From the IMG/VR virus record IMGVR_UViG_3300035180_000536, positions 1 to 41,755 of that record: a stretch of DNA of 41,755 bases; one strand, 5' to 3'. A model generated the notes under the pieces. That model saw only the letters and a program-made list of their open reading frames with translations, did no database searches and was not told the origin of the DNA. Below, one piece after another: positions 6,641 to 20,695 of the stretch. The translations under genes and the position numbers were made by a program. Origin of the DNA: a virus. Position 1 is the stretch's first letter. Every line of letters begins with the position of its first letter.

Positions 6641-8080
6641 ACGTCAACAACCCCACCCTAAGGGGTGGAGCTTGCATCTAGGCTCCACCGCAGTTCCGCA
6701 TATCTCGAAAGACGTGCGGCTTTGGCTTCGTCGCCTGATGCTTCAGGGGCGGCTGACAATCGCCCCGTCCTCGCCCAGTCTTGCCGGACAAGGAGCGTTC
6801 GCATGCTGATGTTCCTTGCAGCCACTAAATCGGCATGGAGTGTGTGTCCGCAATGCGCGCACGCGAACAGCAAGCCATGATGGGGCCTATTCTCCCGCTC
6901 GACGTGCCCGCAAACAGGGCACGCCTGGCTGGTGTAATCCGCATCGACCCAAATTGGCACTCCACCAGACAATCTTGTCTTGTACGCGATTTTGGTCTGC
7001 ACATCCGCAAAATTCCAACTGCTCACTTTGCGGTTGGACTTGCGCAGCTTCACTGAAGCCGTCCGCGTATGACGACGCTCGGTCCGGTTGCGGATGTCTT
7101 TCAGCCACTCCATCCCCACCATTGCGTGTGGCTCCGCAATGGATTTGCTCACGCAGTGCGCTGTATTCGCGTTCAGCCGTCTTTCTCGCAGAGCCAGTTT
7201 TCTCAAAACCACTTTGGCTCCGCGAGTGCCCTTCGCTTGCAACGCACTGCGTGTCCTGGCGACACGTTCGGCCAGATGCCGCTCCGGCCCGCCATGATAA
7301 AAACGACACCGGCCACTGGTATCGGATTCGACCGCGATGTTACGGCGATTTAGATCAACGCCCTTGACAGTGGTGATGGCGTCCAGCGGGTTCTGTTCCA
7401 GCGCCTTGTCGATGGACACCATCAGATACCATGTCTTACTCACCTGGTCTTGCCAGAGCTTGGCAGCACCCATGGTCACACCATGTTCATGTGACGCCTT
7501 CAGCCACTCCAGATGCCGGTTCCATCCTTCGTATCGGCACCGGATACGCCCGTCCAGCGTTCCTATGCTGACCGTCTGTTCCTTGCCCAGGGACCAGTCC
7601 CTGCGATGGTTCAATGTGACGGTCAGGGATGTGAACTTCGGTGCTTTGTCGAGTCCTCTGTAGCGCCGCTTCGCCCAGCCCTTTGCATTGTGCGTGGCGT
7701 TGGCCTTCGCTCGCGCCCACAGCGTCTTGTACGCTGCGGCGACTTGCCGTGGCACATTGCAGGCCATCTGGGATGGCAGCTTGAATCGCTCACGCAAGTC
7801 CTGATACACCATCGTCTGCAACTTCATGCCCTGCGACATTTTGCCGTGGGCAAAAGCCACAGCAGACGCATGGTTCAATGCGTCACGATAGGCCAACGCC
7901 GTGCGCCGAACCGCATCTTCCTGCTCTTTGCTGAGCAGGAGCTTGAGCTTGCAGGTCAGCGACTGGGTTGTCGGAAACGTATCCATGTTCACAAGGATAA
8001 ACGATTGTTCGTCTTTTGTGAAGTCTCGTCGCCGTGATATGGCTGCGCTATCCATCCCAGCCTTGAAGGACGGGGACTCA
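6641..8080 (-). mobile_element. IS605-type element 1: tnpB only, no tnpA
   Basis: The tnpB gene is flanked by hairpins. At its 3' side a 6-bp stem (6653-6658 with 6663-6668, loop TAAG) spans the tnpB stop codon, the place where the IS605 right end and the guide RNA scaffold lie. On the 5' side, minus-strand bases 8077-8058 match the right-end hairpin of element 2 at 17 of 20 positions, so they may be a left-end hairpin or a relic. No TnpA transposase gene is present. Boundaries are approximate. A TnpB guide would read the bases just beyond the right end, near 6650-6620, which is the promoter. Confidence 0.5.
6658..7986 (-). CDS. tnpB: TnpB, RNA-guided RuvC nuclease of IS605 type
   Basis: 442 residues from the ATG at 7986; the frame is open further upstream, but family similarity starts with TQSLTCKLKLLLSKEQ. 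The RuvC-like nuclease is complete: Asp211 in KGVDLNRRNIAV, Glu293 in VGMEWLKDI, Asp386 in HADLVAARNI, with a zinc finger CPVC...CAHC at about 356-379 between the last two. TnpB proteins use an RNA from the element's right end to cut matching DNA, which favours spread of the element. All catalytic residues are present, so this is not one of the inactivated TnpB-derived repressors. No strong ribosome site is visible. It interrupts the early operon between ssb and the promoter at 6608. Confidence 0.88.
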   Translation of the reverse strand: MDTFPTTQSLTCKLKLLLSKEQEDAVRRTALAYRDALNHASAVAFAHGKMSQGMKLQTMVYQDLRERFKLPSQMACNVPRQVAAAYKTLWARAKANATHNAKGWAKRRYRGLDKAPKFTSLTVTLNHRRDWSLGKEQTVSIGTLDGRIRCRYEGWNRHLEWLKASHEHGVTMGAAKLWQDQVSKTWYLMVSIDKALEQNPLDAITTVKGVDLNRRNIAVESDTSGRCRFYHGGPERHLAERVARTRSALQAKGTRGAKVVLRKLALRERRLNANTAHCVSKSIAEPHAMVGMEWLKDIRNRTERRHTRTASVKLRKSNRKVSSWNFADVQTKIAYKTRLSGGVPIWVDADYTSQACPVCGHVERENRPHHGLLFACAHCGHTLHADLVAARNISMRTLLVRQDWARTGRLSAAPEASGDEAKAARLSRYAELRWSLDASSTP

Positions 8081-8120
8081 CGCGCGGCAAGTTGAGCGCA
8101 GCGGCTAGCGTGTTTATCGG

Positions 8121-8558
8121 CTACCAAGGGATGTCATCGTCCATGTCATCGAAGCTCGGCGATGGCGGCTTCTGAACATCACGCCTGGCCTCCGTCCGCT
8201 TCGCCGGGCGTTCGTCTCCGTCACCACTGGAACCGCCAAGCATCTTCATGCGACTACCCTTGATCTCGGTCGTGTAACGCTCGATGCCTTCCTTGTCCGT
8301 GTATTTGCGCGTACGGATACTGCCCTCGATGTAAACCAAGCTGCCCTTGCGCAGATACTTGCCACATACCTCGGCGGTACTGCCGAAGAAGCTCACACGG
8401 TGCCATTCCGTTGTCTCGACAAGCTGACCAGACTTGTCCTTGTATTTCTCGCTTGTCGCAACAGACAGGTTCACAACAGCATCGCCATTCGGTAGGTACT
8501 TGAGCTCCGGGTCTGCGCCCAAGTGCCCAACGATGATTGCCAGATTCACGCTTGCCAT
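8121..8558 (-). CDS. ssb: Single-stranded DNA-binding protein
   Basis: 145 residues; the ATG at 8558 follows GGAG and begins [21 protein letters not shown], the classic SSB OB-fold start. The core includes [23 protein letters not shown] and [16 protein letters not shown]. The acidic tail ends DDMDDDIPW, the docking tip for replication and repair proteins, with a terminal Trp in place of the usual Phe. It works with the phage DnaB helicase and the ERF/YqaJ recombination pair encoded upstream. The start lies one base after the MazG stop. Confidence 0.96.
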
Positions 8559-17386: not shown

Positions 17387-18760
17387 TTACAGGAATCCCC
17401 TTTTGCTCTGCGTCTTGGCGGCCGCACGCGATTCTGGATCGTAGTGGCCGAAGTAGTTGCCGAACCGGGCAGTCTCGGCATTGAACGCCAGCGGAATCCT
17501 GCCAGTAGGGCCGTTGCGCTGCTTGCCGATGATGCACTCGGCCACGCCCTTGTATTCGCTGTCTGGATCGTAGTAATCATCGCGGTGCAGCAGCAGTATG
17601 AGATCGGCGTCCTGCTCGATTGCGCCAGACTCGCGCAGATCGGACAGCAGCGGACGCTTGTCGGTGCGACCTGTGACCTGACGGTTTAGCTGGCTCAGGA
17701 CGATTACCGGTACGGAAAGCTCGCGCGCCATCGCTTTCAAGCTCCGGCTCACGGATGCAAGCGCAACAGCCCGATTCTCGCCATGTGCATCAATCAGGCC
17801 AATGTAGTCGATGACGACCAGGCCAAGGCCATGCTTGCGCTTTGTCTGCCGCGCACGGGCACGAATTTGCGCAACAGTCAGGCTCGACCTATCGTCGATG
17901 TACAGGCTCCTGTTGTTGAGCTTTCCAACGGCGTAGGTCAGGTTTCCCCATTCGTCTCCGGCAAGCGATCCTGTGCGCAGTTTCAGCAGGTCGATTTTGC
18001 CAGCGCCGGCCGCCATCCTCATCGCAAGCATGCTCGCGCTCATTTCCAGGCTGAACACCTGCACGGGCACGGTTTCGCTTACGTGCTCCGCGATTTGCAT
18101 TGCCAGTGCGGTTTTCCCCATGCTGGGCCGGCCGGCGACGATGATCAGGTCACCGGGCTCTAGGCCGACAATCGCGGCGTCAAGGTCTGCGAACCCGGTC
18201 TTGAGCGGCTGGTATGTGCCGTTGAAGGCGGCATCAACGCGCTCAACCATGGCCCGCAGTGCGTCGCGTATGCTCACGGACTCCTGCGACGCCTCGGTCA
18301 CGTCAAGCTCCATGACGGCTTGCTGAGCTTCGGTAACGGCCTTGGCTGCGTCGCCGCCAGCGTATCCAAGATCGGAAATGCGCACGCCGATCTCGATGAG
18401 CCGACGCATCACTGCGCGCGAACGGACTGCCTTGGCGTAGCTGCGAATGTTGGCGGCAGATGGCGTTTGTGCTGCCAGCGCGGCGATGTAGGACAGCCCG
18501 CCAGCGCGCTCAAGGTCTCCACTGGCCTGCAATGCCTCGGCGACGGTAACAACGTCCGCAGGTTTGCCAGCGTCGATGAGGCTGACAATCGCGCGCCAGA
18601 TGCGGCGGTGATCGTCGCCGTAGAAGTCATGCTCGGATATCTCGACCCGGTCAAGCGCGGTGTTGTCGATCAGCAAGCCACCAAGGACGGACTGCTCGGA
18701 CTCATCGTGATGCGGCGGTAAGCGTGGTGTGCTGTCAACGGCAGCCACGCGTGCAGTCAT
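17387..18760 (-). CDS. dnaB: Replicative DNA helicase, DnaB family
   Basis: 457 residues. The N-terminal domain is complete (SEQSVLGGLLIDNTALDRV). The RecA-like helicase has Walker A GRPSMGKT (210-217), Walker B LVVIDYIGLI (about 314-323), the H3 region VIVLSQLNR and the H4 region ESGAIEQDADLILLLHR. It unwinds the fork during phage replication and probably replaces host DnaB, loaded by the upstream winged-helix initiator with which it overlaps by ATGA. The C-terminus ends next to the right end of tnpB element 2. No other replisome protein is encoded except SSB, so host polymerase III must be used. Confidence 0.96.
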   Translation of the reverse strand: MTARVAAVDSTPRLPPHHDESEQSVLGGLLIDNTALDRVEISEHDFYGDDHRRIWRAIVSLIDAGKPADVVTVAEALQASGDLERAGGLSYIAALAAQTPSAANIRSYAKAVRSRAVMRRLIEIGVRISDLGYAGGDAAKAVTEAQQAVMELDVTEASQESVSIRDALRAMVERVDAAFNGTYQPLKTGFADLDAAIVGLEPGDLIIVAGRPSMGKTALAMQIAEHVSETVPVQVFSLEMSASMLAMRMAAGAGKIDLLKLRTGSLAGDEWGNLTYAVGKLNNRSLYIDDRSSLTVAQIRARARQTKRKHGLGLVVIDYIGLIDAHGENRAVALASVSRSLKAMARELSVPVIVLSQLNRQVTGRTDKRPLLSDLRESGAIEQDADLILLLHRDDYYDPDSEYKGVAECIIGKQRNGPTGRIPLAFNAETARFGNYFGHYDPESRAAAKTQSKRGFL

Positions 18761-19761
18761 GCAGCCTCCCTGTGGCGGTGACGCAGCTTGGCAGCATGGC
18801 CGTTGCTGGTAAGCGTGACCGTGCCATCGGCGCTTGTGTACCAGAGCCGATACCAGTTACCGCGAACGGCATTGCGGAACGTTGCTCGCCAGTCGGCCTG
18901 TCGCTTGGAAGATCGGATCGTCATGTGTTGATCCTTGAACTCAAGCCAGCAGAGGTGGAGGAAATCCAACGGCAAGTTTTCACGTTCCGCCTGAGCAAAG
19001 ATCGGGTCGCCCTCGGGAATCGGCATTTCACCTTTTCGCTCGCATTCCTCGATGAACGTTTTCAGCGTGACCTGCGGTTTCTTCTTCCGGCCTTGAGGGG
19101 CCGCCTGCGGATTTTCTGCTGGCGGCTTTTCTTTAGATTCATTCTTACAGGTTCTACTTACATATTCGTCTAGTGTCCAAGCCACCCCTAGGTCTCCGCT
19201 TGGGTTGACCCTCTCCGGTTGGCTTGAGTGGACACCTAGGGCTTCGCTTGAAGCGGGTGACATGCTTGAAGGGGATGGGCTTGAAGCGGGGGACATGCTT
19301 GAAGTTGGGCTATCCTGCGATGGTTGTGCGTGCAGGAATTGTTCGGGTGCGTTTTGTGAAGCTACCGATTCGTCAACAGGGTTGTTGGCGTCAACGGTGT
19401 TGGTTTGCTGGCTGTCGTCCCCGATGTCGTCCTTATCGTCCTCAATGAGTGACTTGATGCTCGGGAGTTGCTCGATCCGGTCACGGATGACGCGGAACAG
19501 ATTGCTGGTTTGCCTTCCTTTGCGTGCAAACCGCTGGTGTATTTCGATGTATCCGTGCCCTTCTAGGCGCTGTAGTGACCGGCGCAACGCTTCCTCGGAT
19601 AGCGATGTCTGTAGCGTAAGGTAGCGCATGCTGGGCCACGTATAGCCTTCGTTGTTGGCGCGCTGGCAAAGCGCGGACAGGACATGGCGGTCAATCGCTG
19701 AAAACCGTGGGCCTGTTGAGAACGCTCGGCTGAAAAGTAGAGTAGAAAGCTCGAAGCTCAT
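18757..19761 (-). CDS. Winged-helix replication initiator-like protein
   Basis: 334 residues; AAGGGG precedes the ATG. Residues 1-95 are a winged helix of the kind in lambda O-like and DnaT/GntR-like phage replication proteins (FSAIDRHVLSALCQRAN, LTLQTSLSEEALRRSLQRLE, GYIEIHQRF). A long, low-complexity Ser/Pro linker follows, with a duplicated SSMSPASS motif from a 26-bp near-perfect direct repeat (19246-19271, 19279-19304). The C-terminal domain (DFLHLCWLEFKDQHM, KRQADWRATFRNAVRGNW) resembles the helicase-contact end of DnaT-like proteins. Being immediately upstream of dnaB, it is the likely origin binder or helicase loader. Confidence 0.8.
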   Translation of the reverse strand: MSFELSTLLFSRAFSTGPRFSAIDRHVLSALCQRANNEGYTWPSMRYLTLQTSLSEEALRRSLQRLEGHGYIEIHQRFARKGRQTSNLFRVIRDRIEQLPSIKSLIEDDKDDIGDDSQQTNTVDANNPVDESVASQNAPEQFLHAQPSQDSPTSSMSPASSPSPSSMSPASSEALGVHSSQPERVNPSGDLGVAWTLDEYVSRTCKNESKEKPPAENPQAAPQGRKKKPQVTLKTFIEECERKGEMPIPEGDPIFAQAERENLPLDFLHLCWLEFKDQHMTIRSSKRQADWRATFRNAVRGNWYRLWYTSADGTVTLTSNGHAAKLRHRHREAA

Positions 19762-19770
19762 TGCTGCCCC

Positions 19771-20238
19771 TTAGCAGTGGAAAAGCGAAACGCGCTTCGA
19801 TTCCTCGATGCGCGATCTGTTGATGATGTAGGCATTGGCTGATCGCCCTCCGTCGCCCCTAAATCCGACGGAGACCCGAATGTAACCGGCGTCCGCGAGC
19901 CGTTTCAGGGATCGGCGCAGGGTGTCCTCGCCAATTTCGCACTTTTCGGCGAGAAAGGCGACAGTAGGACGGGCGATGCCGTTGCTGTCGGCACAGTCTG
20001 CCAATTGACCAAGTACTAGCTTGTCCGTGGCCGCAACCATTGGATCAGTTTCCATGCGGCGCGAGGATACGAGCTCGCAAAGGTATTGCCTCATCTGCGC
20101 TACTCCTTTCGTTTCTCGAAGTTTCAGAAGGCCGAGGTACACCCTCCCGCTTTCAATGAGCTGGATGGCGTCGTCGATGATGTGGGTGGCGACTTCTACG
20201 CCGCCCGTGGGTGGTTTGTTTTGCGGTTTGTGTGACAT
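19771..20238 (-). CDS. Winged-helix regulator or replication accessory under a structured leader
   Basis: 155 residues, ATG 20236-20238. The C-terminal 90 residues are a winged helix (VLGQLADCADSNGI, PTVAFLAEKCEIGEDTLRRSLKRLADAGYIRVS), alike in layout to the first domain of the next protein, so one may derive from the other. The N-terminal 60 residues are helical. Its ribosome site GGAG (20247-20250) lies inside a long RNA stem formed by the leader 20239-20342, and a second long pairing would free it; translation is therefore probably regulated. It could act as a repressor, an initiator, or both. Confidence 0.75.
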   Translation of the reverse strand: MSHKPQNKPPTGGVEVATHIIDDAIQLIESGRVYLGLLKLRETKGVAQMRQYLCELVSSRRMETDPMVAATDKLVLGQLADCADSNGIARPTVAFLAEKCEIGEDTLRRSLKRLADAGYIRVSVGFRGDGGRSANAYIINRSRIEESKRVSLFHC

Positions 20239-20370
20239 CGTGCAATCTCCATTGGCGCTGATCTACCGGTGGAAATTCCGGCGAGAACGCGCCCATTGCG
20301 GGCTAGATACGGCCAGTAGACCAGCCCAATGGAGACTGCACGTTCTCGCTTTGCGCTTTCCACGGCGCTT
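20239..20370 (-). promoter_or_regulatory. Two-state RNA leader controlling the downstream start
   Basis: On the minus-strand transcript, helix A pairs 20239-20266 with 20316-20342: 24 standard pairs, two U.G pairs and one bulge. It encloses the GGAG site of the gene at 20238. Helix B pairs 20281-20289 with 20341-20349 (nine perfect pairs) and 20266-20275 with 20357-20365 (nine pairs, one bulge). A and B cross each other and share their edges, so both cannot form fully at once; B leaves the ribosome site free. A small hairpin (20291-20294 with 20300-20303) lies in the loop. Both A mismatches become wobble pairs only on the minus strand, which supports a leftward RNA. A DNA-level origin structure is an alternative reading. 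Confidence 0.65.
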
Positions 20371-20376
20371 GGTCAA

Positions 20377-20405
20377 AGTGTGCAGACCGTTGACCAAAAA
20401 GTCAA
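20377..20405 (-). promoter_or_regulatory. Leftward promoter for the leader RNA
   Basis: Minus strand: TTGACT (20400-20405), 17 bases, CACACT (20377-20382), predicting a start near 20370, at the very edge of helix B. An inverted repeat TTGAC-CAAAAA-GTCAA (20389-20405 approximately) covers the -35 box, and a wider pair TTGGTCAA/TTGACCAA flanks the -10 box. The overlapping repeats point to repressor control. The -10 box is weak, so activation is possible. Confidence 0.6.
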
Positions 20406-20695
20406 GAGGATTTTCTGCTACGTGTCCGCAGTTTGTCCATCGGCACAAGCAGAGCATCGAGCGTCATGATGGTTCCGGGCGTGACTTGCTCAGACGCCTT
20501 GATGAGACGCCGCGCCAGGTCAGGCCCCGGGCGCTTGTGGCCGGTCACGAAGTGCTGCCAGTAGCGCCATGTCGTCCCGGCCATATCGACGACCTTGCGC
20601 GCAGCGTCTTTGCCGACTGCGTTTTGGTATTGCTTCGCGTTCAAATTGTGTTCCCTCAGGTTACGTGTTAGTATTGGCATGTCCTGTGTGGTCAC
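20402..20695 (-). CDS. Cro/repressor-like small DNA-binding protein
   Basis: 97 residues if it starts at the GTG 20695 that shares a GTGA overlap with the gene upstream, or 92 from the ATG at 20680, whose AGGA site is too close. NAKQYQNAVGKDAARKVVDMAGTT and RYWQHFVTGHKRPGPDLARRLIKAS follow the small XRE/Cro-like pattern in which a helix-turn-helix is followed by GxxRPxxxLAxRL. It sits between two leftward promoters with related operator-like repeats and is the best candidate to bind them. No larger CI-type repressor with a peptidase or dimer domain is present. Confidence 0.72.
   Translation of the reverse strand: MTTQDMPILTRNLREHNLNAKQYQNAVGKDAARKVVDMAGTTWRYWQHFVTGHKRPGPDLARRLIKASEQVTPGTIMTLDALLVPMDKLRTRSRKSS
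20646..20674 (+). promoter_or_regulatory. Candidate rightward promoter inside the Cro-like gene
   Basis: TTGTGT (20646-20651), 17 bases, TAGTAT (20669-20674). Spacing is ideal and the -10 box good; the -35 box matches at four of six bases. The predicted start is near 20681, facing an intrinsic terminator 50 bases on. Confidence 0.45.

Follow-up and report, generated by a model that had tools for sequence, protein, structure and literature searches.

A conserved phage RNA leader with competing, covarying helices ahead of replication genes

The locus and its leader

The window analyzed here, i.e., the whole stretch of DNA under study, is a 41,755-base virus record (IMG/VR IMGVR_UViG_3300035180_000536) in which terminase, portal and major capsid genes lie on the strand opposite to that of the leader described below (Table 1). 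On the minus strand, a winged-helix gene whose 155-aa product resembles phage replication-initiation proteins is followed by a second HTH_36 gene and a DnaB helicase gene, which agrees with the initial annotation of a DNA-binding gene at the head of the replication genes. The gene upstream of the leader has no family match, and elsewhere this phage genome encodes a TnpB/Cas12f-like protein. A promoter read directly from the sequence (TTGACT-17-CACACT) predicts an RNA 5' end at ca. 20370, the same transcript start that had been proposed before. Overlapping the -10 region of this promoter, the inverted repeat TTGGTCAA ... TTGACCAA might serve as the operator of a repressor.

Throughout the family the parts of the leader follow one another, from 5' to 3', as H1, X, A5', Y, P4, Z, H2 and A3' with the Shine-Dalgarno (SD) sequence, the latter mostly ca. 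5-8 nt from the start codon. Over six to seven bases, the 8-nt loops of the two small hairpins H1 and H2 complement each other (helix K), and strand X pairs with Z (helix P2) or, in most relatives, with Y (helix P3), the latter pairing being absent from the window. A further pairing of CCATTGGGCT with AGCCCGCAATGG, seen in folds of window prefixes, was dropped as it is not kept in relatives, and the conserved feature at that site is the hairpin P4.

Table 1 Positions of the leader, its parts and neighboring genes in the window, and of related or comparable leaders in other viral contigs
Feature	Sequence	Position	Strand	Description
DnaB helicase gene	Window	17387-18760	-	After second HTH_36 gene; the pair spans 17387..19761
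Second HTH_36 gene	Window	18757-19761	-	Replication-initiator-like protein, next after controlled gene
Controlled gene	Window	19771..20238	-	155 aa, HTH_36 (Pfam 2.6e-12), winged-helix domain
Start codon	Window	20238-20236	-	ATG
Whole structured leader	Window	20239..20368	-	130 nt; covariance model R1, 114 bits, E 5e-30
A3'	Window	20239..20269	-	3' strand of helix A; holds SD GGAG 20250-20247
H2	Window	20266..20281	-	Hairpin CCGG-AATTTCCA-CCGG; loop 20275-20269 is 3' side of K
Z	Window	20281..20289	-	3' strand of P2, CGTTCTCGC
P4	Window	20291..20303	-	Hairpin GCCC-GCAAT-GGGC
A5'	Window	20313..20342	-	5' (anti-SD) strand of helix A; family core CAGTC...GGGCTGGTC
X	Window	20341..20349	-	5' strand of P2 (inner helix B), GCGAGAACG
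H1	Window	20353..20368	-	Hairpin GCGC / 8-nt loop CGTGGAAA / GCGC; 5' end of RNA
K, 5' side	Window	20357..20363	-	H1 loop GTGGAAA; kissing helix with 20275-20269
Promoter	Window	20377..20405	-	-35 TTGACT 20405-20400; 17-nt spacer; weak -10 CACACT 20382-20377
Inverted repeat	Window	20369-20397		TTGGTCAA ... TTGACCAA
Upstream gene	Window	20402-20695		No family match
TnpB/Cas12f-like gene	Window	6658-8127	-	Cas12f1-like_TNB, 5e-18
Family member	L203	494-624	+	SD shifted or changed
Family member	L140	5189-5320	+	SD shifted or changed
Family member	L018	4445-4588		In tandem with int-alpA RNA
int-alpA RNA	L018	4370-4436		Ends 8 nt upstream of family member
int-alpA RNA	L258	1410-1477		Rfam RF02996
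int-alpA RNA	L298	1404-1479		Rfam RF02996
int-alpA-like leader	L250, L253, L254, L280 and others			Similar to int-alpA RNA
Second leader type	L240	1383-1489	+	
Second leader type	L255	1386-1489	+	
Second leader type	L260	1385-1488	+	
Second leader type	L283	1385-1486	+	
Second leader type	L290	1385-1486	+	
Second leader type	L293	1384-1487	+	
Second leader type	L238		+	

The minimum-energy fold of the minus-strand sequence 20370-20230 is dominated by helix A, which joins 20342-20313 with 20239-20269 (30 pairs, 3 of them G-U, one bulge at 20256), and its energy of -75.5 kcal/mol lies far below that of shuffled sequences (-46.1 +/- 4.0 kcal/mol; z -7.3; 0 of 200). The initial annotation had described this helix as 20316-20342 paired with 20239-20266, containing the GGAG of the gene that starts at 20238; both the pairing with its two wobbles and the enclosed GGAG hold, but the 24 standard pairs counted then are 25 Watson-Crick pairs (27 pairs in total). 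Its competitor, helix B, is present as well: the inner part (20349-20341 with 20289-20281) forms the nine pairs of P2, and the outer part (20365-20357 with 20275-20266) is, in the light of the relatives' sequences, best seen as the loop-loop kissing helix K. As A and B cross without a spacer in the window, their full forms are mutually exclusive, just as had been claimed, although B and the upper part of A could be present together. The predicted order of formation, B first and A later, was reproduced by prefix folding, which favors a B-type fold for transcript ends from ca. 20280 to 20250 and helix A from 20245 onwards.

A family of relatives and its covariation

The window's own protein (P0001) retrieved no relatives from viral contigs, and these were found instead by a DNA pattern, i.e., the 18-nt A5' core CTCCATTGGGCTGGTCTA, which occurs in eight viral contigs with identical layout. 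Further patterns, finally CAGTC, GGGCTG, GGAA and ACCG at loose spacing, widened the family to ca. 105 viral contigs (of 117 pattern matches, about eleven were discounted as falling in sequences without kinship or in the window itself), and 59 distinct relatives, situated ahead of differing replication-initiator-type genes, were aligned (alignment A2). Three more members (L289/L296 and L268) were found by the covariance model only, which scores H1, A and P4 and is thus blind to K, P2 and P3; these members retain K, P2, P3 and A with a sequence that is mostly new. Each phage record carries one copy (15 of the 15 larger records tested). Two relatives (L203 and L140) keep the pairing of helix A with an SD of altered position or sequence (GAGG, AAGG).

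The element appears to belong to no catalogued group. None of the 4227 models of Rfam 15 reached its gathering score in the window or over the relatives' elements, so that the earlier remark on the lack of a named class stands, and at relaxed E-values the only match to the element was MIR5998, with 20 bits against a gathering score of 180. Likewise, blastn searches with the element found no match in 50,697 annotated phage records (11-base words) or in 72,556 plasmids. Among the bacterial genomes of 84,980 species, searched with a strict pattern that diverged copies could escape, a single exact 20-mer match (L202) was obtained, and since the remaining element is missing there, no prophage copy was seen. 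A literature search, with subscription papers mostly outside its reach, found no description of the element.

The initial annotation made its case dependent on compensatory changes in related phages, and these turned out to be abundant. In the 59-sequence alignment, 97.6% of cells are paired, double changes occur in 27 pairs (14.7 in shuffled alignments), and double-change cells number 245 against 64.6 in shuffles (0 of 500), while shifting the pairing partner by 1-3 columns lowers pairing to 31-43%. Broken down by helix, paired cells amount to 99.3% in K (double changes in five of seven pairs), 92.9% in P2 (seven of seven), 99.2% in helix A (10 of its 24 family pairs) and 91.9% in P4. The stem of H1 also covaries (GCGC/GCGC, ACGC/GCGT, GCGT/ACGC, AGGT/ACCT), its 99% pairing being partly by construction, as A2 admitted only elements with a 4-bp H1 stem. 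When strands were swapped among 28 relatives less than 85% identical, the elements' own duplex energies beat 10,000 of 10,000 permutations, and this holds separately for K, P2 (X-Z), P3 (X-Y) and A (A5-A3). A chance inverted repeat is thus rejected on the strength of both shuffles and covariation.

Helix K was re-tested on a set selected without it, because the first alignment (A1) had been partly chosen on K complementarity. It alternates many times between GTGGAAA/TTTCCAC and GTGAGAA/TTCTCAC, with ca. 27 changes on the tree, and one pair of sister elements (L010 and L016) differs only by four compensated bases in K; a single member (L076) has K broken. Diversifying selection on K was considered and rejected: its two central pairs vary at the rate of unpaired spacer columns, and therefore we claim complementarity alone and no positive selection.

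Two further observations bear on the molecule that is under selection. G-U pairs far outnumber A-C combinations (230 vs. 11 cells) and the covariance model gives the minus strand 114 bits and the plus strand 25, which together designate an RNA of the minus strand. Moreover, of 63 distinct upstream sequences, 51 have their best -10-like hexamer 6-9 nt ahead of H1 (8 nt in the window), counted from the end of the hexamer, and thus H1 marks the 5' end of the RNA. Given the G-U excess and this fixed spacing, the element is a transcribed 5' leader; in many contigs it starts within ca. 20 nt of the end of the upstream open reading frame. The reading of the repeat as a DNA-level feature (an origin, a recombination or protein site) or as chance can point to the adjoining replication genes and to the inverted repeat TTGGTCAA/TTGACCAA overlapping the promoter, but both tests to which it was put, the symmetry of G-U and A-C cells and the spacing to promoter and start codon, went against it, as do the covariation and the position fixed relative to -10 box, SD and start codon, and we regard it as extremely improbable.

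A probable translational switch

We consider that this leader is probably a cis-acting, default-off translational switch that heads the phage replication module. What had been termed the plan of a switch is supported by the covariation of both competing helices, by the leader's own promoter and by the location of the SD in one of the two, from which we infer the switching itself. The conflict between the helices would serve as the switch, with P2 plus K as the ON form. As the RNA emerges, H1 would form first, X would then pair with Z (P2), in most relatives possibly with Y beforehand (P3), and the loops of H1 and H2 would kiss (K). This combination of P2 and K would hold the anti-SD strand A5' in a loop, so that the SD, made later, would stay free (ON), until A3' emerges and zips with A5' into helix A, which would hide the GGAG (OFF). 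The real contest would then be between P2 plus K and the lower (SD) half of helix A, its upper half being compatible with P2 plus K. X ends ca. 0-8 nt before the start of A5', and by geometry P2 should therefore be incompatible with a zipped SD half of A.

The same strands could be accommodated in a single static pseudoknotted fold, with all helices formed together as a stability or ribosome-recruitment element, and all of them are indeed conserved in nearly all members. Yet most members have X pairing with Y as well as with Z, and across a gap of ca. 0-8 nt a P2 of 7-9 bp should not be able to span a helix A of 24-30 bp, and thus we deem a static fold quite unlikely.

In nested folding of 28 relatives, helix A is favored by ca. 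24 kcal/mol over folds without it, which contain P2 or P3, and at equilibrium all 28 have a paired SD (fully in 26), which argues for OFF as the default state; with A so far ahead, the ON state should require a pseudoknotted form, kinetics or a ligand. Summed helix energies, with pseudoknot loop costs ignored, place K plus P2 minus the lower half of A at -1.5 +/- 4 kcal/mol over the 28 relatives; P2 of the window was misaligned in that comparison, and its true value of -19.0 kcal/mol gives a balance of ca. -6.6 kcal/mol. By this estimate, P2 plus K and the SD half of A would be near balance, as a switch needs. Simple thermal melting of the SD helix, i.e., an RNA thermometer, appears unlikely for a helix A of 24-30 bp and a computed mean fold energy of -61 kcal/mol.

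A long and near-perfect duplex such as helix A might also be cut by RNase III, which would set the fate of the mRNA or free the ribosome site, and lambda N provides an example of a phage leader under RNase III control. Such cleavage leaves the conservation of K, P2 and P3, all competing with A, unexplained, and we find it decidedly improbable.

If the leader is a switch, a signal tied to the stage of infection (a metabolite, a protein or time) would tip it. The genes behind the leader of the relatives encode mostly DUF1376 proteins and otherwise HTH_36, Lin1244_N, unnamed replication-type and short proteins, and as these products have no kinship to one another, a simple feedback of each product on its own leader is unlikely. 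In five contigs (L077, L056, L089, L011 and L098) an HNH or GIY-YIG nuclease gene lies between the leader and the replication genes and, being directly 3' of the leader, would use its SD.

Such unrelated downstream genes make a shared signal likelier than product autoregulation and are consistent with a ligand-binding riboswitch, a special case of the translational switch, in which invariant bases (CAGTC, GGGCTG, GACCG, CGGAA and a bulged purine in AGCRCC) would form a pocket whose ligand stabilizes either the P2 plus K form or helix A. There are 35 invariant columns over the 59 sequences, several of them beyond the needs of pairing, and a terminator-type leader (see below) stands before the same gene family (DUF1376). 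However, part of the invariance (CAGTC, GGGCTG, GGAA and ACCG) was a search condition, contacts with a protein or the requirements of two folds would account for the invariant strands equally well, the ligand is hypothetical and the leader is not associated with any metabolic gene; a riboswitch is thus possible but somewhat doubtful. Helix A itself, partly invariant beyond pairing needs, may have a further role.

Time could act without any ligand if P2 plus K, formed during transcription, allowed (or held off) a burst of translation until the RNA refolds into helix A, with refolding setting the timing of replication-gene expression. Prefix folds favor the P2 form until A3' is out and A thereafter, and Y and Z contest X in turn while A5' awaits A3', both as a kinetic timer would have it. 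On the other hand, a timer has no need for strong invariance beyond pairing, and with the SD inside A3' it would have little time between the emergence of the SD and the formation of A, and we hold it to be plausible but unlikely.

Known bistable RNAs and other leaders of replication genes

While the RNA class appears to be new, the principle of a bistable leader is already known. The mRNA leader of the phage early gene lambda cIII adopts two alternative structures, one of which hides the ribosome site. The present leader would resemble it in a putative bistable control of access to the ribosome site, for which covariation and folding speak, but no sequence or structural kinship between the two was seen, blastn having matched the element to none of the 50,697 phage records, we know of no kissing loop in the cIII leader, and the present leader belongs to a large family conserved ahead of replication genes. 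In hok mRNA, hairpins that form early and transiently are superseded by a stable long-range fold, which is akin to the replacement of metastable early hairpins proposed here; nevertheless, hok involves 3'-end processing and a toxin, whereas the present case is one of strand exchange within a 5' leader. With translational riboswitches and orphan riboswitch candidates the family shares a structured mRNA leader that is conserved, mutually exclusive pairings that covary and may control expression, an SD within one of the two helices (A) and invariant positions beyond pairing; a further likeness is the other leader type, ending in a terminator, before the same gene family. It differs from these in targeting phage replication genes, in its hypothetical ligand and in matching no Rfam family.

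Genes of the DUF1376 type are preceded by other structured leaders as well. A second leader type, seen in L240, L255 and others (Table 1), bears a 5' hairpin whose loop, TTGGCGG, is complementary to a downstream CCGCCAA, and this pairing covaries (TTGGCAG/CTGCCAA, TTGACGG/CCGTCAA). An intrinsic terminator takes the place of helix A, with its T run just before the ATG, and no match was found in Rfam 15. We claim no kinship, and the order of parts differs, but by analogy its same logic lends independent support to the switch reading. Many phage contigs carry int-alpA RNA (RF02996), or an RNA resembling it, immediately ahead of a DUF1376 gene, which suggests that int-alpA may also be a leader of replication genes. 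Such a placement (in L258 and L298) is reminiscent of the present leader, but RF02996 does not match the window or the relatives' elements. In one contig (L018) the two occur in tandem, and because they are adjacent, 8 nt apart, they are separate elements.

Leaders of DUF1376-type replication genes thus represent a hot spot of structured RNAs, with at least three kinds, two of them outside Rfam. To our knowledge, few conserved cis-regulatory RNAs of phages have been catalogued and almost none that control entry into DNA replication. With its own promoter, a single copy per phage, strong covariation in the helices that compete and invariant bases that are candidate contacts, the leader family can now be taken to reporter assays, probing of its structure and searches for ligands. 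We tentatively propose, as a reading with an appreciable chance although short of even, an RNA switch class that senses a signal of the infection state (a host metabolite, a phage protein or its own RNA by intermolecular loop-loop kissing) and governs when or how much phage DNA is replicated by means of a kissing loop and an exchangeable strand X. If this sensing reading is true, the family would join the terminator-type leaders among several leader switches of phages whose output modules can be exchanged.
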